Under the pieces are notes generated by a model. The model had not been told where the DNA came from and made no database searches. It saw nothing but the letters and a program-made list of their open reading frames with translations. DNA of 64,000 bases from Candidatus Bathyarchaeia archaeon (lineage in GTDB: Archaea; Thermoproteota; Bathyarchaeia; Bathyarchaeales; Bathyarchaeaceae), in assembly GCA_035283685.1 (NCBI GenBank), contig DATETJ010000009.1, forward strand, positions 124,001 to 188,000. Reading direction: 5' to 3'. The position numbers were made by a program, and so were the translations under genes. Shown here piece by piece: positions 13,211-53,222 of this stretch. The number at the start of each line of letters is the position of its first letter. The first letter of the stretch is position 1.

Positions 13211-16200
13211 CTACAGGTTTTGTTCGAGTTGGTCTATCCAGTCTTCGGCAGGAATGCTCCATGACCATGAGTAGGCGTTTTTGATTGTGCGTTGGGAGTA
13301 TCCGAAAGCGGTTTTGTAGTAGTCGACGGCTTTTGAGAGCCATCCTTGGGCAAGCCAGTAGTCGCCTTGGACGATGGAGTTGTCTGCGTAGGTGATTTCG
13401 TTCCAGAGCCAAGCTCGACTGTAGCCCAGTCGCGATTCTGAGTCTTCAACTGCGTCGACGGATAGGGCTCTTTCTGATTGTGCCTCGAACTTGGCTTTGC
13501 TTGACATCACCGTGTTTATTGCATCGAGCTGCTGGATGATTTGGTCTGCGGTGTTGCTTGGCATGTAGCCGTATTTGACCCAGTTCTTCAGGTCGTTCTT
13601 CAGGTATTCAAGTCTGCTTACTGCGAATTTGAGGGCGATCAAGCCTTCTGGTTTGTCGTCGAAGCCGTGTTTGACTGTGTCAAGATAGTTTATTGCGTTT
13701 GTGATGTCGGTTTCTGTTCTTGCAAGGTCGCCTATTATCCGGTCGTGCTTGTACTGATCAATGTTTCTGTCTTCATAGAGAGTTGACACGTGTTCTCGCA
13801 GAATTCTGATTCTCTCAAGTGCGTTTGTCAGGTGGTAGTCTAATACGAATATGCTTGCTTGTGTTGTCGCTTTTGACTGCGCCCATCCAACTGATGTGGC
13901 GCTTGCGTTGAAGTATTTGAAGCCAGGTGTCGCGTATCTTGGGATGGTTGCTGTCACCGGGATGGTGATGGAGCCTCCTTCTGGGATGAAGACTTTTTGT
14001 GTCGTCCATGAAAACCATTGTAGGTGGGCTTGATTTTGGAGCGGTATTCCGGTGTTGGTCAGCGCTATTGTTATTGCGTCGTCGAAGTTTTCGTTGTTGT
14101 AGACTTCAACGTTGAGGTCAACAGGGAACTGCGTCTGTGTGGTCATGGCTGGCATCGTCAGGGTCGAGGCTTCTGGTATGACGGCAACGGTCAAGCTGCC
14201 CTCTGGCGTGGTTGGCAACATGGGTGTGAAGTCAAGTGTTAGTGTAGCGTCTGCGCTGTCTGTTGCGCTCGGTGAGTTTTGTGAGGCTGCGGTCACCCTG
14301 AAGTTGTAGTCTTTTAGTATGAAGGCAGTTTCCGACGGTGGCGTGACGAACAAGTCTACTGTGGCTGTTTCGCTTGGGTTGACTGTGATCGATGCCTGAG
14401 AGAAGTAGAACCATGTCGGGTCTAGTCCCTGCAAAGTTGGGTCGTAGGTGTCGGGCACGTTTCCAGTGTTGTGGATACTTACGGTGTATTTTGTGGTTTT
14501 GAGTTCGTTGCCCGCTACTTGCGGGTCAATCGAGATGTCAACTCCATAACTTGGAATAACAACTGAGATGGTTGCTGGCGTGGTTGGGAAAACTCCCATT
14601 AGGCTGTCGTCAGATCTGTCGGTGTCGTTGTCAAAAGCTGTTGAAAACCATTGAATTCTTTGGTTGAGGTGCGCGGTCCATTCGCTCCTTAATATGTCGT
14701 ACCAGTAAACTCCTTGGGAAGAGCCTTGTGGGAGCATCCAATTCCAGTGTGAAAACCCGTCGGGGGATTCGTATCTGTAGTAGAAGTACACCCAAGAAAT
14801 ATCACTGTCGTCTGTCCATCGCACTGATAGTCGAATGTCTGATGGATATTCATGTGTGTATATTTGTCCGTCAGGCGGATTGAGAGCTGATCCTGCTGGC
14901 GCATCTGTGTCGTCATCGTCCACTATTGCAAGTCTCCCGCGGGCAAAACTGGAAAGCTCGGGATTGCTTACGCTTTCAACATTCACTCTGAAGTATGTCC
15001 ATATTGGAGGTTTGACCAGGTCCCAAAAGGGGGGATCCACAAGCGGCAGGGAAACACTCAACGTTCTGTTCGTAGCTCCGCCTGGTCCCAACGTAACTGG
15101 AAGTTTGGACAGCTTTTCGTAAGGGTTGTCGAACTCAAAATCCAGACCGTGTAATTTTACGTACCAGTTGGTTGTTATCCTGTAAGTTTCCGTGACAGCG
15201 TTAGGGTTGTAGATTGCCACTCTCCATCTTACTGTCTGCCCTGGCTCACCGTATTGACTGCGCTTTTCCGGCGGAGAGATAGTGACACGCGGGTTCGCGT
15301 TGAGTGTAATGTATTGTAGCGCGTTGTCTAGGATTAGCGTGGTCTGTTTTGTTGTTTCTACGTGTCCTAGTCTATCGATGCTGTAGTAGCTTATGTTGTG
15401 CGGGCCGTCACTGTACGCCCTTGTGAGAGGGTTGAATTCGTCGCCTAGTACTATTGGCTCTCCCGTGCATAACAGGTCCAATGTGGGATGCCTAAAGCAT
15501 CTCATTGCTGGTCTTGGACTCATGTAGTTTTTCCACTCGCCGTCGTCGACCTTGTAGTAGGTTTCAGGTGCGCCCGAAACGTCGTCCACGTTGAATTCCA
15601 TGACTGTGTCCGACGTCACGTAGGTGTTTCCCAACGCGTCAGTGAATCGAGGTTCGTCGACCTCCAGTGTTGTCTGTGGTGGGCCGTTGTTTAGGTGCAA
15701 GATCTGTACGTGTCTCTGTTCTGTTCCGTCGCCGTACGGTTCCTGGGTTTGGTAGCCTTGTGCAGCGTATTCGAGAATGTATACCCCATCCTCAAGAGGA
15801 ATAGGAAAAGGCGAGCATATTAGCATGTCATCTGTAAAGTGGCATTCGACACCCTCAAGCTTAATTGAGACTGTGGCGGAGTTTGCTTCGAACCTGCCTC
15901 GGCTCCATGAAGGCATGGGATCGCCTACCTTCCAGTAACGATATTGTAGGCGGTTGTAGTCGAGTCCACTGGCAGTCAATGTCAAAGACGTGTCAGATGT
16001 GATGACCGCTTTTCCATCACTTGAGATGTAACTAGGGCTTCCAAAGGTTAGACGACTCGACGGCGTGACATATGGATGACCAACTTCGTATATGCGGTAT
16101 CTAAGAGAGAAACAGCTTCCTTGGGGTGCTTTCCAGTCTTCGTAGCAACCATCGTGATTCCCCTCATTACTGTATCCTTCCCTTGCGAATAGGTTGTGAT

Positions 16201-39629: not shown

Positions 39630-39671
39630 ACATGTTGGCGTCTAAATTGACTCGTTTATGTCATAAAAATT

Positions 39672-39679
39672 GATATATA
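39672..39679 (+). promoter_or_regulatory. TATA box of the purF operon
   Basis: gatatata predicts transcription start near 39702. That supports the ATG at 39718 as the start of purF, with a leader of about 15 bases, over further upstream in-frame codons. Confidence 0.5.
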
Positions 39680-39717
39680 CGTGTATGATGTCTCTTGTGA
39701 TGCGGGAAGTCGAAGCA

Positions 39718-41211
39718 ATGGAAGACGCCATAAAAGAAGAGTGCGGAGTCTTTGCTGCCAAAGATTTCAAAGGTGACTCGGTTTTTCAATATGTTTACTG
39801 GGGACTACGTGGGCAAAACCATCGGGGTCACCAGTCACACGGCATACTCACTTATGACGGTAGTTTTCACGCTTACAAAGGGCTAGACCTCGTTCCAAAA
39901 CTGAAAAAAAGCGAACTCCAATCACTGTTAGACAATCTGCCCGGGCATGTCGGTATTGGCAATGTGCGCTACACAACCTCAGGTGGAACTGATGAACAGT
40001 CGCTTGTCAAAGGCACACAACCCTTTTTCTTGAAAACCAATCACATTGGAATGGCTATAGCGTTCAACGGCAACATAGTCAACACCGTGCAACTCAGATG
40101 GGAGATTAGGAACAAAGTTCTTGATTTCAGTTATGATTGCGATGTTGAGCTTTTGGGCAACAAACTACTAATGAGCCTGTTGGAAAACAAGGACTTGTCC
40201 ACAGCCGTTAGAGACTGCATGACGGACGTAGAGGGCGCCTTCTCAGTTGTGGGAGTGACCCAAGAGGGCGAATTATTCGGGTTCAAAGACCCATACGGTA
40301 TAAAGCCTCTCTGTTGCGGTCGTCACCCCACCAAGAGCGTGTGGGCTTTGTCATCCGAAACAGTAGGCTTGGACATTAATGGCTTCCAATTTGATTTCGA
40401 AGTAAATCCGGGCGAACTAGTCGTAGCTACAAAAGACGGTTTTACACGCACGCAAATTATGCCCCGTCGAAGAAAGGCTTTGTGCGCCTTCGAATTCGCC
40501 TATTTCGCAAGACCTGACTCAAGACTTGGCAACCGTTACGTGTATGAGGTCCGCGAAGAGTTCGGCAGAAACCTTACTCGGGAGTATCCTGAAGTGACCA
40601 AGGATGCCGACTTGATTGTTTCCATGCCTGAAACAGGCGATGACGTAGCTTACGGCATGCACGAGACGACAGGTCTGAGATGGGAACGATCAATACGAAG
40701 ACATAGGTACGTTACAGAAAGAGCGTTCATTCTGCTGGCTGATGAGCGCCACGCCACAATTGACCGAAAAATAAACGTGCTCCCGCAAAAAATCGATGGC
40801 AAAAAAGTCCTAGTCACGGAGGACAGCATAGTACGAGGCGACACGACCAAGGTTGTTGTTGAAAAACTCCGCCGGCTCGGAGCTAAGAAAATTCATTTAT
40901 TTATTACCTACCCACGCATAATCGGTCCATGCTTCTACGGAATCGACATGGCGACTTACAGCGAGCTTATCGGTTTCCGCCACGCCCCAGACGAAATCGC
41001 GACCATAATAGGCGCCGACTCGGTCAACTATCAGTCAGTAGAAGGATTTGTCAAATCGATTGGAATGAGCGAGGAAGAACTCTGCATGGCTTGCGTAACA
41101 GGCAAGTATCCAACTCCGCTTGCGCAGAAGATGGCAGACGAAATGAAGGCGAATGTTGAAAAAGGCCACGAGGAGACCGGGCGGGTCTACGAAGTGGCAA
41201 GCGTGATCTGA
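39718..41211 (+). CDS. purF: Amidophosphoribosyltransferase
   Basis: About 497 residues from the ATG at 39718; the frame is open back to 39670. The catalytic Cys (KEECGVF) follows a propeptide of 8 residues, as in self-processing PurF. The glutaminase motifs (RGQNHRGHQSHGI, GNVRYTTSGG, DPYGIKPL) and the PRPP loop LVTEDSIVRGDTTK are intact. Cys residues in ALCAFEFAYFARPDS, IGPCFYG and ELCMACVTGKYP match the [4Fe-4S]-type enzyme. It makes phosphoribosylamine, the first committed step of purine synthesis. Its stop overlaps the purD ATG (TGATG). Confidence 0.96.
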   Translation: MEDAIKEECGVFAAKDFKGDSVFQYVYWGLRGQNHRGHQSHGILTYDGSFHAYKGLDLVPKLKKSELQSLLDNLPGHVGIGNVRYTTSGGTDEQSLVKGTQPFFLKTNHIGMAIAFNGNIVNTVQLRWEIRNKVLDFSYDCDVELLGNKLLMSLLENKDLSTAVRDCMTDVEGAFSVVGVTQEGELFGFKDPYGIKPLCCGRHPTKSVWALSSETVGLDINGFQFDFEVNPGELVVATKDGFTRTQIMPRRRKALCAFEFAYFARPDSRLGNRYVYEVREEFGRNLTREYPEVTKDADLIVSMPETGDDVAYGMHETTGLRWERSIRRHRYVTERAFILLADERHATIDRKINVLPQKIDGKKVLVTEDSIVRGDTTKVVVEKLRRLGAKKIHLFITYPRIIGPCFYGIDMATYSELIGFRHAPDEIATIIGADSVNYQSVEGFVKSIGMSEEELCMACVTGKYPTPLAQKMADEMKANVEKGHEETGRVYEVASVI

Positions 41212-42629
41212 TGGAAAAAGTCGGCATCTTAGTTATTTCATACGGCTCGAGAGAAGCCGCCTTTGTAGACGCCTTCGCTCGAAGTACAAACTACAAGACT
41301 GAACTATACATCATTGACAAGCAGAGGAACCCGTACAATATTAGGAAAGCCAAGGAACACAACGTGATATCAGACCTCAACATAGAGGCAATAACCGAGT
41401 TCGTAAGGAAACGCAAAGACAAAATAGACTTTGGAATTGTTGGCCCAGAAAAACCCATAGTTGAAGGCGTTCGTGATCTGGTCGAAGGCAAAACCCATGT
41501 ACCCATCATCTGTCCGACCAGGGAATTTGCCATCGAAGCAAGCAAGGTTGCGCAACGCTTGCTACTGGACAGAGTTGCCCCCGAGGCAAACCCGAAGTTC
41601 AAGATCTTCAATCCTAAAGACCAGGGGAGTACTGCGGCGCTGAGAAAGGATGTCTATGCGTGGTTGGAGACATTGAAGAACGAGGCGGTGGTGAAGCCGG
41701 ACAGACCCGCGGCTGGAAAAGGTGTAGGTGTGTGGGGTGATCATTTTAACACTCGCGAGGAACTATTTGACCATGTGGTGGCTAACTATCAACATGGCGC
41801 CGTGGTAATAGAAGAGAAGGTTGAAGGCGAAGAGTCCAGTTTCCAAGCTTTTTGCGACGGAAAACACATTGTACCCTTGCCTGAAACCCGAGACTACAAG
41901 AGAGCCTTCGACGGTGACGAAGGACCGAACACAGGTGGAATGGGCTCTTACAAAAGCGTAGGCAACATTTTGCCTTTTATGGAAGCGGAAGACAGAGAAA
42001 AAGAAATCGAATTGGTTTACAAGCTTTTCAGGGAACTGCGGAAGAAAGCAAGCAGCACGGACCTGCGGGGCATACCGTTCTACGAGGCCTTCATGCACAC
42101 TGCGGGAGGACCCAAAGTTCTGGAGAATAACAGCAGACCCGGCGACCCCGAAATTCAGTGCCTACTACCGCTTCTGAAAGACGATTTCGTCGACATCTGC
42201 TACAGAATCCTAGAGGGCAACCTAACCAAAGTCAACATAGAAAGCAAAGCAACAGTAGTAATCTACAAGGCGCCACCGAACTATGGTGGATACTCAACCA
42301 CGTTTCCAAACCACATGAGCGAAAACGAGGTGAACACTCCGGTCGACCTGACTGAAGTCGAAAAGCTGTGCATGAAACATGAGGGTGATATGCACGTTTA
42401 TCCTGGATCAATGGAAACAAGGGAGGATGGCAAAACTTACGCATTGACGTCCAGAGCTGTATGCGTGGTTGGCACTGGTGGTACGATAGAGGAAGCGAGA
42501 GAGATCTCGCTGAAGGGTGTTAAGGCGATCACGGGTGGGGCGCTTTGGCATCGAAACGACATAGCCTCAAGGGAACACATTGCCAGAAGCGTAGAACATA
42601 TGAAACGCCTGAGGCTTCAAAGGGCATGA
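41211..42629 (+). CDS. purD: Phosphoribosylamine-glycine ligase
   Basis: 472 residues, somewhat longer than typical PurD (about 430). The ATP-grasp core carries VVKPDRPAAGKGVGVW, VIEEKVEGEESSFQAFCDG, RDYKRAFDGDEGPNTGGMG and ENNSRPGDPEIQ. The N-domain has ISYGSREAA and GPEKPIVEGV. It makes GAR, the acceptor for the first formylation. It starts on the last base of the purF stop codon, and its own stop overlaps the ATG of the HAD-like gene. Confidence 0.95.
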   Translation: MEKVGILVISYGSREAAFVDAFARSTNYKTELYIIDKQRNPYNIRKAKEHNVISDLNIEAITEFVRKRKDKIDFGIVGPEKPIVEGVRDLVEGKTHVPIICPTREFAIEASKVAQRLLLDRVAPEANPKFKIFNPKDQGSTAALRKDVYAWLETLKNEAVVKPDRPAAGKGVGVWGDHFNTREELFDHVVANYQHGAVVIEEKVEGEESSFQAFCDGKHIVPLPETRDYKRAFDGDEGPNTGGMGSYKSVGNILPFMEAEDREKEIELVYKLFRELRKKASSTDLRGIPFYEAFMHTAGGPKVLENNSRPGDPEIQCLLPLLKDDFVDICYRILEGNLTKVNIESKATVVIYKAPPNYGGYSTTFPNHMSENEVNTPVDLTEVEKLCMKHEGDMHVYPGSMETREDGKTYALTSRAVCVVGTGGTIEEAREISLKGVKAITGGALWHRNDIASREHIARSVEHMKRLRLQRA

Positions 42630-43732
42630 CTTCGGCCCGCACATCGGCGTCGCAGAAAATCTTCATCTCTGATTGTGAAGGACCAATTTCAAAGAACGAC
42701 AATGCCTTCGAACTCGCAAGCCATTTCATTCCAAAAGGCGATCGTCTATTCACTCTGATAAGTCGATATGACGACATACTCGCCGACATTGTGAAGCGTG
42801 TAGGCTACAAGGCAGGAGACACACTAAAGCTTATTCTACCGTTCTTGAAAGCCTACGGCGCGTCTGATGAGAAGATGCGTGACTTTTCATCGCAAAACTT
42901 GATTCTGATGCCCGGCGCAAAGGAAATGCTTAAGTTCGTTCGCGGTTTCATGCCATCTTACATTGTCAGCACCAGCTATGCGCAGTATATGCACGCTCTG
43001 TGTGTCGCAGTAGAGTTTCCTTTTGAGAACGTACGTTGTACACGCGTGGATTTAGACAATTATGTTGTCGTCAGCCGTGAGGAAGCAGAAGTTAAACGCC
43101 TTGCAGAAAGGATAGTCAGGCTTCCTATGCTAAAGATTCCCAGAGGCGCTGGGTCTCTAGCGGATCTTCCTAAGAGAATGCAGGACACTGTGCAGAGACT
43201 GGACGAAATCTTCTGGGAGGAAATCCCTAGCATGAAGATAGGCAGATTAGTAGCCGAAGTCAACCCGGTTGGTGGGTCAGAAAAAGCTGCTGAAGTGAAA
43301 GACATCGTAACCAAGCTAAACAGGGGCCTTGAGAACGTGATGTATGTTGGTGACAGCATAACAGATGCGTCAGCTTTTCAACTGGTGCGTGGCGCTGGAG
43401 GCTTAGCGGTTTCCTTCAATGGAAATAACTTTGCAGTAAGGGAGGCGGAAGTTGCGGTGCTTTCAAGAAACGCTATCGTGACAGCAGTGTTGGCAAGCAT
43501 TTTCAGCCGTTTTGGAAAAGCTCGACTTGTGACATTCATTAGAGAATGGAAGCCATCAACAATGGAAAAAGCCGGTTTATATGAGCCTTTGAATGAATGC
43601 TTCACCAAGACCTGTAGCGACGAATTCCCAACGATTAAGTTAATAACTGGACGAAACGTGGCGAAATTGATGCAGGAGAGCACACTGTTCCGCAAGAAAG
43701 TGAGAGGCGAAGCGGTGGGGAAACTAGGATAG
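42626..43732 (+). CDS. HAD-superfamily hydrolase of the purine operon
   Basis: 368 residues from the ATG at 42626, overlapping the purD stop in ATGA; the frame is open to 42545, inside purD. HAD motif I reads FISDCEGPISKNDNA, where Asp is the nucleophile but the usual second Asp is Glu. Motif II is YIVSTSYAQYM and motif IV VMYVGDSITDASAF. The long central helical insert (about 150-240) is unlike phosphoserine phosphatase. It resembles the archaeal COG4030-type predicted hydrolases, from memory. Translational coupling to purD suggests a phosphatase acting on a purine-pathway or formyl-carrier metabolite. Confidence 0.78.
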   Translation: MTSARTSASQKIFISDCEGPISKNDNAFELASHFIPKGDRLFTLISRYDDILADIVKRVGYKAGDTLKLILPFLKAYGASDEKMRDFSSQNLILMPGAKEMLKFVRGFMPSYIVSTSYAQYMHALCVAVEFPFENVRCTRVDLDNYVVVSREEAEVKRLAERIVRLPMLKIPRGAGSLADLPKRMQDTVQRLDEIFWEEIPSMKIGRLVAEVNPVGGSEKAAEVKDIVTKLNRGLENVMYVGDSITDASAFQLVRGAGGLAVSFNGNNFAVREAEVAVLSRNAIVTAVLASIFSRFGKARLVTFIREWKPSTMEKAGLYEPLNECFTKTCSDEFPTIKLITGRNVAKLMQESTLFRKKVRGEAVGKLG

Positions 43733-43748
43733 AAACCATTGCGTGGCG

Positions 43749-44648
43749 ATGAAATTGGCGGAAGTTGAGAATACTTATGCAGAGGCGTTCGATGGATTGT
43801 TCTGTCGCATTTTGATCACGGCTAGGGATAAGACTCGCCTCGAAAAAGCAGCTTTTGGGTCAACAGCTTTACCAATGGTTGTAATCGGCAGAACAGAGGG
43901 CGGCGTGGAAAGATTGCTGAAACCTGCCGAAACTCCTGATGGACGCGTCGGCGTGATAGTTCAGTTTTGGGGCGGCATCGACGAGTCCAAACCAATTGAA
44001 GCTTCGCTTAAGAAGTTCATAAGAGAGGTTTCGTACCGAATCCGTCAGGAAATCTTAGTTGAGCCCACTACTTGCGTTCTCGACGCGTCAGACTCACAAA
44101 CTAAATTCGATGTCATGGACACCGTGGGCCATTGTGGCGACGGTTTTGAATGGGAAGAAGTGTATGCTGAACGCCGAGTCATCAATGTTCCGATTATGAT
44201 GCCCACTTTCCGCATTGAACGCTACTTAGGCTACGGTGTTGGCGTGTCCGGCGGCAATCTTTGGCTTATGTGCCAAAACGAAGACTTGGCCCTGAAGGCG
44301 GGGGATAAAGCGCTCGAAGCTGTGCATGTAATAGAAGGGGTAATTACGCCGTTTGATGTGTGCGCGGCGGGTTCCAAGCCTGAAACCAAGTATCCGGAGA
44401 TTGGACCGACAACCAATCATCTCTATGCCCCTTCGCTGAGAGAGAAGATTTCCGACTCAAAGGTGCCCGAAGGCGTGAACTCCATTCCGGAGATCGTGAT
44501 CAATGGCGTGTCGCTCTACGCCGTCAAAGAGGCTATGAAAGCCGCGATAGACGCGGTTAAGGATATTCAGGGCGTTGTCAAAATCTCGGCGGGCAACTAT
44601 GACGGCAAGCTAGGCAAATACAAAATATACCTTCATGAGCTGCTGTAA
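43749..44648 (+). CDS. ftr: Ftr homologue: formylmethanofuran-tetrahydromethanopterin formyltransferase
   Basis: 299 residues from the ATG at 43749 (a GTG at 43743 is also possible), the normal Ftr length. Recognisable Ftr features are VENTYAEAFDGLFCRILIT, ETPDGRVGVIVQFW, GHCGDGFEWEE, GYGVGVSGGNLWLM, and the hallmark C-terminus EIVINGVSLYAVKEAMKAA followed by GVVKISAGNYDGKLGKYKIYLHELL-type residues. Ftr moves a formyl group between methanofuran and N5 of tetrahydromethanopterin in the archaeal Wood-Ljungdahl/C1 pathway. Here it is embedded in the purF operon, 16 bases after the HAD-like gene and directly ahead of the PfkB kinase, which suggests a link to purine formylation. Confidence 0.88.
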   Translation: MKLAEVENTYAEAFDGLFCRILITARDKTRLEKAAFGSTALPMVVIGRTEGGVERLLKPAETPDGRVGVIVQFWGGIDESKPIEASLKKFIREVSYRIRQEILVEPTTCVLDASDSQTKFDVMDTVGHCGDGFEWEEVYAERRVINVPIMMPTFRIERYLGYGVGVSGGNLWLMCQNEDLALKAGDKALEAVHVIEGVITPFDVCAAGSKPETKYPEIGPTTNHLYAPSLREKISDSKVPEGVNSIPEIVINGVSLYAVKEAMKAAIDAVKDIQGVVKISAGNYDGKLGKYKIYLHELL

Positions 44649-45548
44649 ATGAAGTTCGACGCAGTCGGTTTTGGCGCGTTAAACGTGGACAAACTCTATC
44701 ATGTCAACAAGATTGCCAGAGGAGGCGAAGAAAGCTTTATCCTGCGCATTAGCGAGGCGCCAGGCGGCTCAGCTGCTAACACTATTGTTGGCTTGGCAAG
44801 ACTAGGCGCGAAAACTGGATTCATTGGGAAAATCGCCAGCGACCATGAAGGCGAGCTGCTTCTTCACGACTTTAGAAGCGAGGGCGTCAACGTTGAGGGC
44901 GTAGTAATTGCTGAACATGGACGCAGTGGCACTGTTGAAGCATTCGTTGACAAGAAAGGCGAAAGAGCGCTTTATGTGCATCCCAGCGTCAACGACACAC
45001 TGGAATTCAAAGACGTAGATCTGAAGTACGCTGAACAAACTGAGTTCTTGCACCTAACATCAATGGATAACAAACCCTTTCAAGCCCAGAAAAAACTCGT
45101 CGAAGAACTACTAAACGTGAAAGTAAGCTTCGACCCCGGGGAAATCTACGCAAAAAAGGGGTTGACCAAACTCAGACCTATCATAAAACGAAGTTTAGTT
45201 GTTATGCCGAGCGAAAATGAGTTGAGAATGCTAGCTGAAAAAGACTTCAAAAACGGCGCTGCGGCGCTGCTCAAAGAAGGCGCCAAAATAGTGGCCGTCA
45301 AACTGGGCGAGAAGGGATGCTACGTCACAAACGGCAGCGAAAGCCACTTGATTCCGCCGTTCAAGACCAAGGTTGTCGACACAACGGGTGCTGGAGATGC
45401 CTTTTGCGCAGGCTTCCTCTACGGACTAATCAAGAACAAGGATTTGTACGCATGTGGACGACTCGGAAACTTTGTAGCTTCAAAATGCATAGCTAAAGTG
45501 GGCGCCCGAACAGGACTGCCGCGAGCCTCTGATCTCAGGTGCTTCTAA
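44649..45548 (+). CDS. PfkB-family carbohydrate or nucleoside kinase
   Basis: 299 residues starting immediately after the Ftr stop. N-terminal GALNVDKLYHVNKI and GGSAANTIVGLARLG, a central MPSENELRML and the C-terminal DTTGAGDAFCAGFLYG (anion hole and catalytic Asp) define the ribokinase/PfkB fold. Substrate cannot be read from sequence; ribose or a nucleoside would fit the purine operon. It is convergent with purQ, with a 4-base overlap of stop codons. Confidence 0.9.
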   Translation: MKFDAVGFGALNVDKLYHVNKIARGGEESFILRISEAPGGSAANTIVGLARLGAKTGFIGKIASDHEGELLLHDFRSEGVNVEGVVIAEHGRSGTVEAFVDKKGERALYVHPSVNDTLEFKDVDLKYAEQTEFLHLTSMDNKPFQAQKKLVEELLNVKVSFDPGEIYAKKGLTKLRPIIKRSLVVMPSENELRMLAEKDFKNGAAALLKEGAKIVAVKLGEKGCYVTNGSESHLIPPFKTKVVDTTGAGDAFCAGFLYGLIKNKDLYACGRLGNFVASKCIAKVGARTGLPRASDLRCF

Positions 45549-46363
45549 AGCTTCTTGACCAAGTAGTCGACAACTGACTCGAAGACAAGTCTCCCATCAG
45601 CATACTTGCTAAGTCTGCCGTATCTGGTGCGGTCTGGTTGCTGCCAAGTGAAGTAGGCTCGTTCTGGATGAGGCATTAAGCCGAATATTGTGCCTGTTTG
45701 GTCGCATATCGCTGCTATATCGTGGAAGGAGCCGTTTGGGTTTATTGGGAATCTGCCTTGGGCGGTCTCGCCATCTTCGGTGCAATATTGGAAAACCAGT
45801 TGGTCATTTTCGATGAGTTCATTTAGTTTTTCATTTTGCTTGCTTCTCTCAAACATAAACCGGCCTTCTCCGTGAGCAATTGGAATGTGGATGACTTGCT
45901 CCTTCTTAACTCTCTTAGTGAATATGCACTTGCCTTTGCTTTCATGCTTCAGATGAACCCAGACACAACGATAACCGATCGGTACGTTTGTCGCCAACGC
46001 GGCTTGAGGCAACTCACTTAACCCGTTGAACCCGGGGAGCAAGCCAGCTTCAACTAGAATTTGAAAGCCGTTACAGATGCCAAGAATCGGACGTTCTTCA
46101 TTAACGAACTCCTTTAGGCTGTGCCCAAGCCTTGCTATCACGCTCTTCGCAAGTATGGCGCCTGCCCGAACGTAGTCCCCATAGGAAAAGCCCCCTGGGA
46201 AAACAAGTACGTGATAATCAAGTAGATTGTTTTTTCTGGCAACATCGTTCAGATGAGCAACTTCAGCTCCGACCCCTATATTGATGAAAGCACGTCGAGT
46301 TTCCGCGTCACAGTTGGTTCCGCCAACGCGCAAAATGCACACTCTGATGTCCTTAGGTTTCAT
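45545..46363 (-). CDS. purQ: FGAM synthase glutaminase subunit
   Basis: 272 residues. Class I glutaminase: nucleophile in PILGICNGFQILVEAGLLPG, oxyanion region FPGGFSYGDYVRAGAI, and the His-Glu pair in GLMPHPERAY. Works with PurL and PurS to turn FGAR into FGAM. The N-terminus overlaps the end of purL by 11 bases. Confidence 0.96.
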   Translation of the reverse strand: MKPKDIRVCILRVGGTNCDAETRRAFINIGVGAEVAHLNDVARKNNLLDYHVLVFPGGFSYGDYVRAGAILAKSVIARLGHSLKEFVNEERPILGICNGFQILVEAGLLPGFNGLSELPQAALATNVPIGYRCVWVHLKHESKGKCIFTKRVKKEQVIHIPIAHGEGRFMFERSKQNEKLNELIENDQLVFQYCTEDGETAQGRFPINPNGSFHDIAAICDQTGTIFGLMPHPERAYFTWQQPDRTRYGRLSKYADGRLVFESVVDYLVKKL

Positions 46364-48746
46364 AGGCTACGGCTCCGAAAGCGGTTTTCCAAGCTTTTCT
46401 AAGGGTCGCCAAATCTGTTCCAACTATCATCCTGCTATTCGTGGAGTAGACAGTGAATTTAGATTCTTTCTTGACTCGCCCAATTAACTCGCATGATTTA
46501 CCTTTCATCAGTTCTTCGAAATCCCCTTCGTGGTTTGCATCGACTTCAACCAGAAAGCGACTGTTAGATTCTGAGAACAGGATGAGATCGTTGCGAATCA
46601 AGCTTCTGGGTTTGGGCACGTTTTTCAGGAACAATTCCACGCCGTAGTTGCCTGTGAAAGCCATTTCAGCTGCGGCAATCGCCAGTCCACCTTCCGATAA
46701 ATCGTGGCACGCCCGTATAAAACCCGCGTCAATTGCTTTCACAACTGACTCAACGGCTTGCTTAGCTGTTTTCACATTAACTTGAGGCACCGATTTTCCA
46801 AGAAATCCCCTGAGCCTGTAGTATTCAGAGCCGCCTAGCTCGGGAAGACTACTCCCTATCAAATAGAGTGAGTTGCTGGGCTGTTTCAGATCCATTGTAA
46901 CGGCCTTTCGCACATCTGGAACTATTCCTACAGCCGTGATCAGAAGCGTAGGTGTCACAGAACCAAGAGGCGACTCGTTGTAGAGGCTGTCCTTACCAGA
47001 AATAAACGGTGTCTTAAATCCTAAAGCAATATCATGGCATGCCTGACACGCCTGCACCAAAGAGCCTAGACGATCGGGCTTTTCGGGGTTTCCCCAGGTG
47101 AAGTTGTCAAGCAACGCGATTCTGCGTCCGCCCACAGCTGTGTTGTTCCTAACTGCTTCATCAATATTCGATGCTGCCATCCAATATGCGCTGATTCTGC
47201 CATAGTTTGGGTTGATCCCGCATGAAACAACTATGCCTCTCCAAGAGTTGTCCAATGGCTTGATTACTGCTGCGTCGTTTGGACCAGCATACGTGCCCTG
47301 AAGCGGTTTGATGGCAGTGTTGCCCTTCACTTCGTGGTCATAGCTGCGCACAACTGCCTCTTTGCTGGCAATATTGGGCGCCGACAAAAGCCTCAGAATA
47401 ACATTCCCTACGTCACTTGGCTCTCTGAAAGTTGGTTCACTCTGGAATTCAATGGTTAGGTTAGCCTTCCTTTTTGCTGTAGGCGGTTCAAATAGAAAAT
47501 CTATGTCTATCTCGGCAACTCGTCGGCCTTCATAACTTATGATGAGCACAGGTGACTGCGTAAATCTGCCAATCGGCGCAGCCTCAACGTCCTCACGCTC
47601 AAAGACTGATAAAACTTCTCGGAGATTTCGTGGCGGAATCGCCAACAGCATTCTTTCTTGGGACTCGGAGATGTAGATCTCCCACGGCGCCAAACCTGCA
47701 TACTTCAGTGGAACCTTATCGAGCTCAACAATTGCGCCACAGCCTGCTGCAAGAGCACGTTCGCCAACAGCTGAGGATAAGCCTCCTCCACCAAGGTCTG
47801 TTATTCCTGAACCTAGTCCACGATCGCGGACTTCGAGCACTGCCCTTTTCAACTTCTCCTCTTCAATCGGATTAGCTATCTGGACCGCTGGACGCGAGAT
47901 CTCTTCCGACTTCTCAGTCAACTCAGCTGAGGCAAATGTGACCCCGTGAATGCCATCGCGGCCAGTCTTGCCGCCGACTAACAGAATTATGTCGTTTGGT
48001 TTTATGTTTCGTACATGCTTAGCCTTTGGAAGAATGCCGAAGCAGCCGCAGTATACCACAACATTGCCTGTGTAGCTCTCGTCGAAGTAGATGGCTCCAT
48101 TGACTGTTGGGATGCCCATGTTGTTACTGTATGCGCCTATGCCAGCGACGACACCGCTGTAAACATACTTCGGATGCTTGATTCCATACGGCAGCTTGTC
48201 ATAATCATAGCCCAATGGTCCAAAACCGAGAACGTCAGTGCAAGCTATTGGATCCGCCCAAACGCCCAAGATATCCCTTATGACGCCACCTACACCTGTT
48301 GCTGCCCCGCCGAAAGGTTCGACGGCAGACGGATGGTTGTGTGTTTCAACCTTGGCTGCAACCGCGAATCCCTTGTCAAAGTCAACTATGCCTGCATTGT
48401 CTTCAAAAACCGAGACGCACCAAGGTGGATCGATTTTCTCCGTGACTTTGGCGATGTAGGTTCTGAACAGGCTTTTGATTCTCTTTCGACCTGCAATTAT
48501 TTCGCCTTTGAAGGTTTTGTGGAAGCAATGTTCTGACCAAGTTTGCCCAATAGTCTGCAGCTCGACATCTGTAGGACTTCGCCTTTTCTGAACAAAGTAT
48601 TTCCTGACTTTCTTCATTTCCTCTAAGTTTAGACCGATAGCAAGTTCCCTACTGACCTGGTGCAGTTGTTTTTCGCTAGCGTCTTTCAATGGGATTTCAT
48701 GAAGCGGAAAAGGCAAAGGGCGCTTTTTGTACAAGCTGGTCTTCAT
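46353..48746 (-). CDS. purL: FGAM synthase large subunit
   Basis: 797 residues from the ATG at 48746, which shares a base with the purS stop (TGATG); a TTG one codon earlier is possible. It is small-type PurL without a fused glutaminase. Signature segments are GQTWSEHCFHKTF, KVETHNHPSAVEPFGGAATGVGG (in part), LVGGKTGRDGIHG, DLGGGGLSSAVGE and ISGKDSLYNE. It is the ATP-dependent subunit of the PurLQS complex. Confidence 0.96.
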   Translation of the reverse strand: MKTSLYKKRPLPFPLHEIPLKDASEKQLHQVSRELAIGLNLEEMKKVRKYFVQKRRSPTDVELQTIGQTWSEHCFHKTFKGEIIAGRKRIKSLFRTYIAKVTEKIDPPWCVSVFEDNAGIVDFDKGFAVAAKVETHNHPSAVEPFGGAATGVGGVIRDILGVWADPIACTDVLGFGPLGYDYDKLPYGIKHPKYVYSGVVAGIGAYSNNMGIPTVNGAIYFDESYTGNVVVYCGCFGILPKAKHVRNIKPNDIILLVGGKTGRDGIHGVTFASAELTEKSEEISRPAVQIANPIEEEKLKRAVLEVRDRGLGSGITDLGGGGLSSAVGERALAAGCGAIVELDKVPLKYAGLAPWEIYISESQERMLLAIPPRNLREVLSVFEREDVEAAPIGRFTQSPVLIISYEGRRVAEIDIDFLFEPPTAKRKANLTIEFQSEPTFREPSDVGNVILRLLSAPNIASKEAVVRSYDHEVKGNTAIKPLQGTYAGPNDAAVIKPLDNSWRGIVVSCGINPNYGRISAYWMAASNIDEAVRNNTAVGGRRIALLDNFTWGNPEKPDRLGSLVQACQACHDIALGFKTPFISGKDSLYNESPLGSVTPTLLITAVGIVPDVRKAVTMDLKQPSNSLYLIGSSLPELGGSEYYRLRGFLGKSVPQVNVKTAKQAVESVVKAIDAGFIRACHDLSEGGLAIAAAEMAFTGNYGVELFLKNVPKPRSLIRNDLILFSESNSRFLVEVDANHEGDFEELMKGKSCELIGRVKKESKFTVYSTNSRMIVGTDLATLRKAWKTAFGAVAYET

Positions 48747-48994
48747 CAAGCTTCCTCTATCTCAAAACGATAGCTGTCCTTTACAGGATTTGCCAGCAGT
48801 CGCTTGCACATTTCGTCAACGGTCTTTCTGGCTTCAACTTGGTTTCTAGCCTCGAATACAATCTCATAGACCTTGCTGACGCCAACTCTGGAGACCTTGT
48901 AGTTCAACTCCACCAACGATTGCTTCGTTGTTTCGCCTTCCGGGTCAGAGTGGCCTGGTTTAAGTCTAACCTCAACTCTAGCACGGAATTTCAT
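48746..48994 (-). CDS. purS: FGAM synthase small subunit
   Basis: 82 residues, the usual PurS size. FRARVEVRLKPGHSDPEGETT, ALVEL-type strand (SLVELNY), VSRVGVSKVYEIVFEA and DEMCKRLLANPVKD are typical. It bridges PurL and PurQ and helps channel ammonia. It is translationally coupled to purL. Confidence 0.95.
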   Translation of the reverse strand: MKFRARVEVRLKPGHSDPEGETTKQSLVELNYKVSRVGVSKVYEIVFEARNQVEARKTVDEMCKRLLANPVKDSYRFEIEEA

Positions 48995-49081: not shown

Positions 49082-50179
49082 CTATTCTCGAGAAAGATGC
49101 ATTTTCTTTCCTTCATATTTAACGACGATCTTGCCCATTTCTGTAACCGTGCCTATTGATTCGGTCTCAATGCCACCTCTGCACAGCAAATCAACAGCTT
49201 CATCCTTAGCTCCTCTGTCCACGACCACTGCGAAGCCCCAGCCCATGTTGAAGGTCTTGAACATCTCATGGTCCGAAATAGGTTTTCGACGCTTCTCAGA
49301 AACTTGCTGGATAAGGCGGAATATTGGCTGCGACTTGAAGTTGTCGAATTCGAACCCTATACATTTGTTGATGTGCATAAGTTTGTCGAATTTGAGGTAA
49401 GCGTCGCCCGTGATGTGAACCATTGCCTTGATCTCGAGGCTTCCCGCAAGCCTGACCATTGGTTTAACGTAGATCCGTGTTGGCTCGAGAACTTCGTAAA
49501 CAAGTTCTCTGCCCAACCCATCTGGAACGTCGAAGGGTTCGTATGCGCCCCCCCAATGTTTGAACAAAACCTTTCGTGCAAGTGAAATGCCGTTGCTGTG
49601 GATGCCTGAGCTACGCATGCCAATGACTACGTCTCCAGGCTTCAGGTTACTTCCATAAATGATGCTGTGTTTGTGCACCTCGCCGACCGAAGCGAAGACC
49701 ATGTCAAAGCCTTTTCCCTCTGCAATGCCCTTGATGAGGTCAGGAACGTCGCCGATTTCGCCACTTGGCACCACGCACTCTGCTTCTTCAGCACCTCCAA
49801 CTATGCCCTTCATCCATTCTCTGATTAGAGCAGGGTTAGAAACATGAGCGTGAATGTTGTCAGCTAACGCTAGAGGACGCGCACCTGAACGTATGACATC
49901 GTTAACGGCCATGGCTATGCCATCGATGCCGATGGTGTCATATTTGTCAGCGAGTTGAGCTATCAAGACCTTTGTGCCGATTTCTTCGATGACCAAGTCG
50001 AGGTACATGTTGCCGCCAATGGGGAAAATGTTGCCGTACGGGAGCTTGACAATAGGCCCGTATCTGCTGAACCTATACGTCTTACCAAGGGTTTCTAATG
50101 CTTTCTTTGATTTCGTGCGGAGTCTTCGATCCACACCTACCTCGGCATAAGTTAGCGTCTTAGCTGGTTTTTTAGGCAT
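49082..50179 (-). CDS. purM: AIR synthase
   Basis: 365 residues from the ATG at 50179; a GTG at 50191 would add 4. It is of the PurM/PurL ATP-binding fold with YAEVGVDRRLRTKSK, DTIGIDGIAMAVNDVIRSGARPL-type residues, GMRSSGIHSNGISLARK and HITGDAYLKFDKL. Canonical PurM has GDLVAMNVNDIL and GLASSGLHSNGYSL, so the match is clear, although it is more like the divergent archaeal form. It cyclises FGAM to AIR. Confidence 0.92.
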   Translation of the reverse strand: MPKKPAKTLTYAEVGVDRRLRTKSKKALETLGKTYRFSRYGPIVKLPYGNIFPIGGNMYLDLVIEEIGTKVLIAQLADKYDTIGIDGIAMAVNDVIRSGARPLALADNIHAHVSNPALIREWMKGIVGGAEEAECVVPSGEIGDVPDLIKGIAEGKGFDMVFASVGEVHKHSIIYGSNLKPGDVVIGMRSSGIHSNGISLARKVLFKHWGGAYEPFDVPDGLGRELVYEVLEPTRIYVKPMVRLAGSLEIKAMVHITGDAYLKFDKLMHINKCIGFEFDNFKSQPIFRLIQQVSEKRRKPISDHEMFKTFNMGWGFAVVVDRGAKDEAVDLLCRGGIETESIGTVTEMGKIVVKYEGKKMHLSRE

Positions 50180-50195
50180 TGAATTCTTCACTCGT

Positions 50196-51632
50196 TTAAG
50201 TTACGATGAGATGAAGTTTCTTCTCTTTCGATGCCCGCTTGATCTCCAACGCAATTCGGTCGCCCATACTCATTGTCTTGTTATACTTGGCGTTAGCGTA
50301 TTGCGAACCTATGCCCATGTGCACGTTGGTTCCGCCTCCGTGTCTCAAAGCCACATCCTGTGTCACTGGAATGTGCATGAGGGGTTCAGCGCCTTCTGGA
50401 ACATCGTACAACCCGTAATCCATTGCTGTTTTGGCTTCAGAACCCATTGTGACATCAACTTTGACTGACGGATTGTGCTCATACTTTGATATCTTGTCCC
50501 AAGTGATAAGTGTCTGTAGGCACCAAGCACCGATTATGCCTGGTGTCAAATGCTTCTTCATTGCCAATAAGTAGGCATCGGCATATCGATGCATGTCCTT
50601 CAGCAACGATTCACGCAGACTCATGACAAGGTGAGCTGAAACTTCGAATGAAGGTACTCGTTTGATTTTCGCCTGTACATCCATAGGCAAACGTTTGACG
50701 CCGTCCAGAATTGTTTCACGCCGCTCATCTATGGATAGAAACTGATTTGCCAGGCAAGTTCTAGCCTCTTCTAAACTGGTTTTGTGGAGTTTGGCGTACC
50801 ATTTGTCAACGTCTCCCCAGTCCTCTTGGGCGTCAAGAGGTGAAAAGAAGAAGTTGAAGTTGGCGTGTGGTCCTAACACGATTTGTTCGATGCGCGCGCG
50901 TTCCAAGCACTCCTTGTTCAAGTTGCCGATCTGCATTTCCCTTTCGACCTTAGCTTCCAAATCGTTGGAATCCGCCGCGAAGATGAATTCGCGCTCAAAG
51001 GATCGGTGCGCATGTTCCGCCTTTAGCAGAATGGGGTCTTCGATGGCTTCTTTGAAGCGTATCCCAGTTTTGTGCACCTCGAATTTGTAGGATTTCGGAT
51101 AAGGTATGTGGGCTTTTTCCGCGAACCAGTAATAGTCCTTTTCGATTTCGCCTCGATTCTCCACCTTCAAAGCCAATCTTGAACCAAGGATTGGAACAGG
51201 GTAATCATTTTCGATGTCACTGCAATATTCGTCTCCGCCCACGTAGACCGAGAAAGCCCTGTTGGGGATTTGCATGCACTCCAATTCGACAAGCTCGTCT
51301 GTGTACTTCAGTATGTCTTTATATTCGTTCAGAATCAGGATGACGCTTCGCCATTTCTTATCAGTTTTCTTGATGTCTGATGGATCATCGGTTACGACAA
51401 GGTCGCTTCGCACCTGAGCCGGCAGGTCTTCTACAGGTTTGCCTGACTCGCCAACCATTGGATTTTGAAGATAGATGCGCGCCCTTCCACGAGTGGTGTA
51501 AATTATGCTTCTCAAGCCGTAGTTTCTTTGCCCTTGCCACGCATCCAAGGCTGAATGAGAACCAAGATTAAGTCCAATCGGTTCCTTGTATGATCGTGCT
51601 ATTTCTTGCATTTCTTCTCTTGCTATGACCAT
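50196..51632 (-). CDS. purP: PurP-like ATP-grasp ligase (FAICAR synthetase family)
   Basis: 478 residues, about 100 longer than the best-known PurP proteins (about 360). Family features are IGLNLGSHSALDAWQGQRNYG, VGGDEYCSDIENDYPVPILG, the ATP-grasp segments DPILLKAEHAHRSFEREFIF and VLGPHANFNFFFSP, and the C-terminal RHGGGTNVHMGIGSQYAN followed by MSMGDRIALEIK. PurP uses formate and ATP to formylate AICAR in archaea. It ends 16 bases before purM. The extra length may mean a paralogue with another role. Confidence 0.85.
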   Translation of the reverse strand: MVIAREEMQEIARSYKEPIGLNLGSHSALDAWQGQRNYGLRSIIYTTRGRARIYLQNPMVGESGKPVEDLPAQVRSDLVVTDDPSDIKKTDKKWRSVILILNEYKDILKYTDELVELECMQIPNRAFSVYVGGDEYCSDIENDYPVPILGSRLALKVENRGEIEKDYYWFAEKAHIPYPKSYKFEVHKTGIRFKEAIEDPILLKAEHAHRSFEREFIFAADSNDLEAKVEREMQIGNLNKECLERARIEQIVLGPHANFNFFFSPLDAQEDWGDVDKWYAKLHKTSLEEARTCLANQFLSIDERRETILDGVKRLPMDVQAKIKRVPSFEVSAHLVMSLRESLLKDMHRYADAYLLAMKKHLTPGIIGAWCLQTLITWDKISKYEHNPSVKVDVTMGSEAKTAMDYGLYDVPEGAEPLMHIPVTQDVALRHGGGTNVHMGIGSQYANAKYNKTMSMGDRIALEIKRASKEKKLHLIVT

Positions 51633-51736: not shown

Positions 51737-52570
51737 CTAGAAATCTCTACCTGTCAAAAGCTCATACGCTTCAATGTATTTCTTTGAGGTCTCAAGGATC
51801 ACGTGTTCAGGCAAATCTGGGGCAGGCGGCTGCTTATTCCAACCTACACTAACCAAGTAGTCGCGGACACACTGTTTATCATAGCTAAACTGATCCTGCC
51901 CGACTCGGTGTTTTTCCTTAGACCAGAATCTGCTCGAGTCGGGTGTTATGCACTCGTCTATGAGCATCAGTTCATTATTGGAGAAGCCGAATTCGAATTT
52001 TGTGTCGGCGATTATTATGCCGTGTGTCTCTGCCGTATCTGAGGCTCTTTCATAGATTCTTAAGCTTACTTCCTCGACTTCGGTAGCCAAGGATTTGCCG
52101 ATTTGCTTTGAAACGTCTTCTCGTGACAGCTCGGTGTCGTGACCTGTGTCGGCTTTGGTTGTGGGCGTCAAAATTGGGCTCTTGAGTTTCTCCGCTTTTT
52201 CCAAGCCTTTTGGTAACGACGTCGACTTGCCTTGCTTGTAGCTTTCCCATAATGAGCCGTAGAGATAGCCTCTGACAACAAATTCGACTTTGATGGGTTT
52301 TGACTTCTTAACAAGAACTGAGCGGGGATCAACTACATCGATGACGTGGTTGGCAACTATATCTGCAGTCTGATTGAACCAATAGTTTGATATTCGGTTC
52401 AGGGCTTCGCCTTTAAATGGAATACCGTTTGGCAGTACAACGTCAAATGCTGAGATTCTGTCTGTTGACACAATGAGCAGCTTATCGCCTAGGTCGTAGA
52501 CGTCTCGCACTTTACCCCTCTTAAATAAGGGAAGTGGAAGACTTGTTTCCATCACAACTTCAGTTTGCAT
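51737..52570 (-). CDS. purC: SAICAR synthase
   Basis: 277 residues. Motifs are FKRGKVRDVYDLGDKLLIVSTDRIS-type N-terminus, AFDVVLPNGIPFKGEALNRIS, VRGYLYGSLWESY, ILTPTTKADTGHDTELS, IIIADTKFEFGF and IDECITPDSSRFW. It condenses CAIR with aspartate. The start overlaps the purE stop by 1 base. The 104-base gap to purP contains a separate promoter-like region. Confidence 0.96.
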   Translation of the reverse strand: MQTEVVMETSLPLPLFKRGKVRDVYDLGDKLLIVSTDRISAFDVVLPNGIPFKGEALNRISNYWFNQTADIVANHVIDVVDPRSVLVKKSKPIKVEFVVRGYLYGSLWESYKQGKSTSLPKGLEKAEKLKSPILTPTTKADTGHDTELSREDVSKQIGKSLATEVEEVSLRIYERASDTAETHGIIIADTKFEFGFSNNELMLIDECITPDSSRFWSKEKHRVGQDQFSYDKQCVRDYLVSVGWNKQPPAPDLPEHVILETSKKYIEAYELLTGRDF

Positions 52571-53145
52571 CAGGTGTCCTCTGCGTGCTCCGCATGTTCT
52601 CCGTGTTCTAAGTGATCGATGCGTTCTATGTGTTCGCGTTCCCTTTCATGCTCTTCTTTTTTGAGCAGATCGGCATCAGCTTTTGCCACAACGCTCTTCA
52701 AGGTGTTCATGCAATCGACAACGCGGTTCGTAAGCGAAGGATTAGATAATGCCAAGATTTTCACCGCCAAGAGGGCGGCATTCTCGGGAGATGACACCAA
52801 ACTTACAGCTATGCCTTGGGGCATCATCATCGAAGAGAACATTTTTGGAAGCCCAAGCTTTTCAAGGTCTGGTGGGCAAGCAATAACGGGATATTTGGAA
52901 TTGCCTGCGACAACGCCTGAAAGCGCGTCTGACAAACCAGCCATTGTGATATAGACAATATTGTCCTCGGATTGTTCGAAACCCTTTAGATCACTAAGCA
53001 GTTTGTCGGTGTGCCTGTGTGCAGAATTGATCCTGAATATGCATTTGACTGGGAAGCGGGACTCGCGTAGAAAATCCTTGACTCGATGAGCAAACGCCAA
53101 GTCACTTATGGAGCCTAGAAGAACTACAATTTTCCCTTCTGCCAT
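52570..53145 (-). CDS. purE: AIR carboxylase, class II PurE-like
   Basis: 191 residues from the ATG at 53145 (AGGCGGA upstream). N-terminal VVLLGSISDLAFAHRVKDFL and NSAHRHTDKL are PurE-like. The loop ITMAGLSDALSGVVAGNS followed by VIACPP, and FSSMMMPQGIAVSLV then PENAALLAVKILAL, match class II PurE (AIR carboxylase that uses CO2 directly) rather than the AGGAAHLPG loop of class I mutases. The last 28 residues are an unusual Glu/His/Arg-rich tail. No purK is present in the window, consistent with class II. Confidence 0.88.
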   Translation of the reverse strand: MAEGKIVVLLGSISDLAFAHRVKDFLRESRFPVKCIFRINSAHRHTDKLLSDLKGFEQSEDNIVYITMAGLSDALSGVVAGNSKYPVIACPPDLEKLGLPKMFSSMMMPQGIAVSLVSSPENAALLAVKILALSNPSLTNRVVDCMNTLKSVVAKADADLLKKEEHEREREHIERIDHLEHGEHAEHAEDT

Positions 53146-53222
53146 TTTCAATCCGCCTATTGTTTGACAGTTCGATTATAAAATCATAATGGTAATAACG
53201 AAAGAACTGTGATGCCAAATGC

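Follow-up and report, generated by a model that had tools for sequence, protein, structure and literature searches.

The formylation of GAR to FGAR has been listed as a gap in the purine pathway of several groups of archaea. In the passages drawn on here, Brown et al. (2011, PMC3261824) give no GAR formyltransferase for two Archaeoglobi, four Methanobacteria-type methanogens (there called "Methanomicrobiales") and M. kandleri (Methanopyrus), and in 2022 ANME-1 was added, from which both PurN and PurT are reported absent (Chadwick et al. 2022, PMC9012536). The passages of the latter paper also describe Ftr2, a paralogue of the formyltransferase Ftr, in ANME-1, ANME-2a, ANME-2b, Archaeoglobales and deep methanogens, with M. 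kandleri and M. marburgensis among the carriers named; there it is an uncharacterised protein, the missing PurN and PurT are mentioned separately, and the link is not drawn in the passages concerned. Similar genes are known from Methanothermobacter, in which an Ftr-like and a ribokinase-like gene are classed, in the passages that treat them, as the hydrogenase subunits EhaS and EhaT (PMC3087415). Among open-licence PMC papers we found none that connects Ftr2 with purine synthesis.

Here we consider an ftr homologue that lies within a purine cluster. The window, by which we mean the whole 64,000-nucleotide stretch of Bathyarchaeia DNA that was analysed, carries purF-purD-HAD-ftr-pfkB on the + strand and purQ, purL, purM, purP, purC and purE on the - strand, as read from open reading frames and profile matches:

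39670..41211, +, purF (amidophosphoribosyltransferase); TIGR01134 317.7 bits, below the cut-off of 350; start codon uncertain
41211..42629, +, purD (GAR synthetase), divergent subtype; TIGR00877 262.3 bits, below the cut-off of 288; N-terminal loop altered
42626..43732, +, HAD phosphatase-like protein of the AF1437 family with a DxEGP motif, tentatively proposed as a GAR 5'-phosphatase; PDB 1y8a profile match 164 bits; HAD motifs kept
43749..44648, +, ftr2, an Ftr paralogue, the proposed GAR-step formyltransferase; PF01913/PF02741; own clade; window E250 invariant
44649..45548, +, pfkB-family kinase, ribokinase/adenosine-kinase-like, tentatively proposed as an FGAR-restoring kinase; PF00294 182.1 bits; GAGD motif
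45545..46363, -, purQ; NF002252 299.4 bits, above cut-off
46353..48749, -, purL; TIGR01736 672.8 bits, above cut-off
49082..50191, -, purM; TIGR00878 247.1 bits, above cut-off
50196..51632, -, purP (formate-dependent AICAR formylation), divergent; DUF1297 152.8 and DUF1246 66 bits; below NCBIfam cut-offs
51737..52570, -, purC; NF010568 349.8 bits, above cut-off
52570..53151, -, purE; AIRC PF00731 113.5 bits

The + strand genes are closely packed. Position 41211 is both the end of purF and the start of purD, the purD stop and the HAD start overlap by four bases (ATGA at 42626-42629), the HAD gene ends at 43732, and ftr, which may begin at GTG 43743 or at the ATG at 43749 chosen in the earlier note, ends at 44648, with pfkB following at 44649 without a gap; these coordinates bear out the gene order and the overlapping or near-zero spacing which that note described. 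Two side observations concern other parts of the window. The PurP product (50196-51632) scores far below every NCBIfam cut-off that it matched, and its DUF1297 match is split into two stretches; at 13211-18697 there is an ORF of 1828 aa in which Pfam recognises a thioredoxin domain close to the beginning and hardly anything more.

Genes for the steps on either side of GAR formylation are present in the cluster, and no known gene for that step itself (PurN or PurT) lies within it. The absence of purN and purT from the window, on which the earlier note had remarked, extends to the whole 2.28 Mb genome (98.1% complete, 3.6% contaminated), which has no match to PF00551 (Formyl_trans_N), the domain of PurN-type proteins, and none to TIGR01142 (the ATP-grasp PurT equivalog); these models matched 12 of 14 and 14 of 14 control genomes respectively. 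A genome search also answers the question of a second ftr, since it finds three Ftr copies, of which the window's is one. At L001 lies a copy that the curated model TIGR03119 accepts as canonical Ftr (399.5 bits against a cut-off of 292.6). The third copy (L003 1024-1941; contig 9 of the same genome, G000, 389016-389450) is very divergent, with a tree branch of 1.22 and a score of 287.6, slightly below both curated cut-offs, and its neighbours, judged by eye, are malate/lactate dehydrogenase-like and glutamine synthetase-like.

The Ftr2 clade

The product of the window's ftr has both Ftr domains (FTR 136.9 bits, FTR_C 188.3 bits by Pfam), and Pfam recognises no further domain in it, Formyl_trans_N included. 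It is recognised by the subfamily model NF002554 and scores 229.5 against the TIGR03119 cut-off of 292.6, so it falls outside that equivalog. Its AlphaFold model (pLDDT 86) is predicted to share the fold of solved structures of canonical Ftr, the formylmethanofuran:H4MPT formyltransferase (PDB 1ftr, 1m5h, 1m5s; EC 2.3.1.101), with TM-scores of 0.87-0.89. Aligned with canonical Ftr, the Ftr2 proteins have 45 near-invariant columns in common with it, whereas a further 11 columns are fixed to a different residue. None of the 44 Ftr2 rows, nor any canonical row, departs from Glu at the position of Glu245 (E250 in the window). We take Glu245 to be the key catalytic residue of canonical Ftr, on the strength of the 2006 complex structure.

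A tree of 76 Ftr proteins, built by a quick method with SH-aLRT values and without bootstrap, includes 14 Ftr2 rows from the window's class and 30 from named lineages. All 44 form one clade (SH-aLRT 100, stem 0.82) outside the canonical clade, and it unites the window's class with the paralogues of Archaeoglobi, Methanopyri, ANME-1 and Methanobacteriaceae; by description and by the present tree, the Ftr2 of the passages cited above (PMC9012536) belongs to this same clade. The earlier note expected a distinct clade always linked to pur genes, and only the first part of this stands. In the window's class ftr2 is purD-linked, which canonical Ftr is not, but Archaeoglobi and ANME-1 have it away from pur genes, with no evident shared neighbours in the regions examined, and in a Methanobacteriaceae genome it is adjacent to hydrogenase genes. 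The single Methanobacteriaceae Ftr2 row nests among those of the window's class, which suggests transfer of the HAD-ftr2-pfkB triad. That triad (L279 7895-10791) adjoins hydrogenase and polyferredoxin genes, suggesting transfer into an eha operon.

Ftr2, PurN and PurT among archaeal genomes

We have examined the distribution of Ftr2 in two sets of genomes, most of which are drafts. The class set holds 128 genomes, at least 90% complete, searched with the Ftr2 alignment, PF00551 and TIGR01142; Ftr2 was counted from 357 bits upwards (the next match in the list has 265), and PurT was counted for family f9 only, where a match of about 300 bits is accompanied by a second piece, the other listed matches being at most about 65 bits. 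Ninety-five of these genomes have Ftr2 only, 25 have PurN-type or PurT only, none has both and eight have neither. Five of the eight (G229, G265, G009, G278 and G285) also lack PurD and one (G178) is a contig end; the other two, G276 and G291, have PurD, yet no Ftr2, PurN or PurT. The named set derives from a scan with canonical Ftr that gave 80 named loci, the genomes of 50 of which were searched with an Ftr2 threshold of at least 374 bits (next lower, 265). Ftr2 is present in 30, PurN or PurT in 16, both in none and neither in four. The carriers of Ftr2 are three of three Methanopyri, the one Methanobacteriaceae, 15 of 17 Archaeoglobi and ANME-1/Alkanophaga-type genomes; PF00551 matches 12 of the 50, and PurT is found in four Methanococci (at least 577 bits, or a split match in G317). 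Among the four with neither, G298 lacks PurD, G308 and G332 are draft assemblies (0.9 and 0.8 Mb), and G296 (Baldrarchaeum) has PurD with no Ftr2, PurN or PurT found. G276, G291 and G296 may reflect either incomplete assembly or another solution. We considered and rejected weak PurT homologues elsewhere as a further solution; the TIGR01142 matches outside f9 and the Methanococci, of at most about 65 bits, fall mostly on ORFs of about 1,070-1,130 aa, which resemble other ATP-grasp enzymes.

Across the genomes sampled in these searches Ftr2 excludes PurN and PurT, and genomes of all four lineages with a reported gap (Archaeoglobi, Methanobacteria-type methanogens, Methanopyrus and ANME-1) carry Ftr2. 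Fisher p-values for the co-occurrence counts take no account of how the genomes are related. The exclusion is not absolute, since the passages of Chadwick et al. (PMC9012536) place PurN, alongside Ftr2, in ANME-2a and ANME-2b, which lie outside both of our sets.

The arrangement of the locus in relatives tells a similar story. With the HAD protein as bait, 33 of 200 genomes of the phylum gave a match, all of them among the 36 that belong to the window's class and none among the 164 outside it. When the regions around 32 of these matches were compared (the window's own being excluded), the order purD-HAD-ftr2-pfkB was found kept in 28, including one (L037) in which about 3.3 kb separate ftr2 from pfkB; because it is kept in so many same-class regions, this order is not due to chance. 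In one of the remaining four the contig ends inside the HAD gene (L065), and three, from G193, G025 and G040, differ. In G193 a 330-aa PurN-like gene is situated between purD and HAD, and folD follows pfkB. In G025 and G040 folD likewise follows pfkB and a PurN-like gene follows purD, at about 12 kb from HAD in G040 and on a separate contig from it in G025, and a search with the Ftr2 alignment finds no Ftr2 in either genome. According to lineage, the slot after purD is filled by HAD-ftr2-pfkB, purN-folD, purN-like or purT-purE, and in these regions Ftr2 thus occupies the position held by purN or purT in relatives. Swaps occur even within families, with Ftr2 (G208) or PurN-like (G193) in f12 and Ftr2 (G017) or PurN (G277) in f7. 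On a PurD tree of 68 rows, restricted to genomes with exactly one solution and usable for counting switches and not as a test of exclusion, there are eight switches between Ftr2 and the others on the best tree, and at least five on well-supported branches. PurN and PurT would share with Ftr2 the step proposed here as well as the slot, but they have no domain in common with it, and their donor is folate, or formate with ATP, as opposed to the H4MPT- or methanofuran-bound formyl group proposed for Ftr2.

The HAD and PfkB genes

The genes on either side of ftr2 appear to have a connection with it that goes beyond their position. An alignment of the HAD protein was searched in 80 genomes, 33 with Ftr2 and 47 without; the HAD is present in 31 of the former and absent from 42 of the latter. 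The Ftr2 genomes without a clear HAD are G325 and G306 (an 18-bit match only, scored as absent), and the five with HAD and no Ftr2 are G025, G040, G193, G178 (the contig end) and G298. The association extends to ANME-1-type genomes, Archaeoglobi and Methanopyri, in which the HAD gene and ftr2 lie apart. Linkage within the triad takes other forms as well: HAD with pfkB in three Archaeoglobi loci (L327, L331 and L333), pfkB with ftr2 in three loci of Methanopyri, and the complete set in the Methanobacteriaceae locus.

Both proteins keep the motifs of their families. In the HAD protein motifs I-IV are retained (the Asp nucleophile, Ser/Thr, Lys and GDxxxD, a class IB-like pattern), except that motif I reads DxE, not DxD, in all rows shown, so that the second Asp is replaced; this may weaken hydrolysis. 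ThrH (1rku), which is a Foldseek match at rank 13, also has Glu at this position. The closest solved structure to the AF2 model (pLDDT 92) is AF1437 (PDB 1y8a), an uncharacterised HAD protein of Archaeoglobus fulgidus and a member of the same family (164 bits, TM 0.80/0.93, DxEGP in both), followed by phosphoserine phosphatases. PfkB keeps the GAGD and GG..AN motifs, and among solved structures it comes closest to adenosine kinase and ribokinases.

The PurN-like proteins of the three exceptional genomes warrant a closer examination. We aligned 25 of 37 archaeal PurN-type proteins, the 12 dropped being near relatives, L264, L090 and L091. The loop SGxG[ST/E]N is kept in all 22 aligned proteins from genomes without HAD. 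The PurN-like proteins of G025, G040 and G193, all with HAD, still have the catalytic residues Asn, His and Asp; their loop, however, reads [ST]GRDxx, and they are without the EH segment found further on in canonical PurN. From E. coli PurN we take the loop and the EH segment to bind the phosphate of GAR. Two proteins left out of the alignment, L090 (G289) and L091 (G288), are second Formyl_trans_N proteins from HAD-less genomes, whose first 60 residues contain no SGxGxN loop; each of these genomes has another copy with the loop. On contig 17 of G281 and contig 16 of G209 (L073, L074, L088 and L089) two different Formyl_trans_N genes are adjacent, with their phosphate loops intact. Two families supply the three loop-less PurN-like proteins; as the corresponding PurD rows may group together, the pattern may go back to a single event.

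Judged from the PurN-like gene and folD, the donor in the PurN-like genomes would be folate; judged from Ftr, that in the Ftr2 genomes would be methanopterin. As the donors differ yet HAD and PfkB are the same, these two enzymes most likely act on the acceptor, and this leads to the proposed order of dephosphorylation, formylation and re-phosphorylation. Two other readings were tried and rejected. A part in H4MPT or methanofuran biosynthesis does not agree with the Methanococci and Methanosarcinales, which have Ftr and no HAD. The idea that the divergent PurD is itself a phosphate-free enzyme fails because its altered N-terminal loop does not track HAD; the Archaeoglobi, Methanobacteriaceae and Methanopyri with Ftr2 have another PurD type, and G181, G280, G286 and G287 have the divergent type by score, yet no HAD. 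This divergent subtype (about 222-281 bits), with its altered N-terminal loop, is seen in the window's order, in ANME-1-type genomes and in a few others.

A proposed role in purine synthesis

Taken together, these comparisons suggest that in archaea with H4MPT as C1 carrier Ftr2 probably replaces PurN and PurT, acting as the formyltransferase that turns GAR into FGAR. The recruitment of this branch as an alternative GAR formyltransferase, which the earlier note had put forward beside a supply of formyl-H4MPT to purine synthesis, is therefore well supported as a candidate, by the lack of PurN and PurT, the separate clade, the exclusion in two genome sets and the replacement at the same locus. 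Beyond what that note proposed, the neighbouring HAD and PfkB likewise seem to belong functionally to the system, in view of their co-occurrence, their linkage and the PurN-like loop. In the reaction that we envisage, the primary amine of GAR would take the place of that of methanofuran, and formyl-H4MPT (or formyl-methanofuran) plus the amine would give the formamide; either carrier could be the donor, the two being indistinguishable from sequence.

A bolder suggestion, which we put forward tentatively and at somewhat less than even odds, is a three-enzyme phosphate detour to FGAR. HAD would strip the 5'-phosphate from GAR, Ftr2 would formylate the resulting glycinamide riboside, and PfkB would re-phosphorylate the formylated riboside, giving PurL its FGAR; a formyl transfer that is in itself weakly favourable would be pulled forward by the hydrolysis before it and the ATP-driven step after it. 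In genomes that lost Ftr2, a loop-less PurN relative would have taken over the riboside, HAD and PfkB having stayed. We know of no purine pathway that uses such a detour, and the part of HAD and PfkB in the GAR step, new here, is less certain than the role of Ftr2. In a variant of our proposal Ftr2 alone formylates GAR, with HAD and PfkB serving some other purine-linked task such as metabolite repair or ribose supply. This has the simplest chemistry and would suit both the lineages in which HAD is unlinked to ftr2 and the two Ftr2 genomes without a clear HAD; however, the distribution of HAD tracks Ftr2 and not purine synthesis generally, and the phosphate loop is lost in exactly the three PurN-like proteins that occur with HAD, so that we regard the variant as rather unlikely, though a serious contender.

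Other explanations would take Ftr2 away from the GAR step altogether. It might hydrolyse or shuttle formyl-methanofuran or formyl-H4MPT so as to supply formate to PurP and to a hypothetical formate-dependent GAR enzyme, in the manner of the bacterial formyltransferase/hydrolase complex; Ftr homologues do occur within that complex (Fhc, 6s6y) and a formate-dependent PurP is encoded in the window. Lineages with PurT that need formate (the Methanococci and family f9 of the class) are nonetheless without Ftr2, the GAR enzyme remains missing everywhere, and neither the replacement by purN after purD nor the HAD/PurN-like pattern is accounted for, which makes formate supply a poor prospect. That Ftr2 is simply a further C1-pathway isoenzyme of Ftr, in the purine operon by accident, would agree with the fold held in common with solved Ftr (TM 0.87-0.89), the retained catalytic Glu and the NF002554 match, but hardly with a TIGR03119 score of 229.5 against 292.6 in a genome whose L001 copy passes at 399.5, with a separate clade on a long stem or with the exclusion of PurN and PurT; we consider it very improbable. 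Least credible of all is the existing annotation, under which the Ftr-like and kinase genes are EhaS and EhaT, subunits of an energy-converting hydrogenase and not C1 or sugar enzymes. In its favour are the transcription of these genes together with ehaA-R in Methanothermobacter, as PMC3087415 cites, and the Methanobacteriaceae triad, which has the same HAD-ftr2-pfkB order and adjoins hydrogenase genes; in the window's class, however, the triad follows purD, the neighbours of ftr2 in the window are pur genes and not an eha operon, the catalytic motifs are conserved, and no hydrogenase gene adjoins ftr2 in seven Archaeoglobi, ANME-1-type and Methanopyri regions (ORFs by eye).

Isotope labelling bears on the proposal that Ftr2 acts at the GAR step, and across methanogens it is inconsistent, which counts against that role. 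As cited in passages of Brown et al. (PMC3261824), the C8 of purines in Methanosphaera stadtmanae comes from acetate C2 even when formate is available, and in M. smithii C8 is not so derived. The M. stadtmanae result, read there as a sign of a folate carrier, is in our view easier to reconcile with a C1 unit bound to a carrier than with free formate.

If Ftr2 does act in this way, purine C8 in these archaea would be drawn from the methanopterin C1 pool, contrary to the statement in the same paper that formyl-H4MPT "is not believed" to be the formyl donor (Brown et al. 2011, PMC3261824). Genes of the EhaS/EhaT type would be re-assigned, and AF1437, solved and so far functionless, would gain a role. 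The phosphate detour, if it too is real, would give a central pathway an unusual logic.
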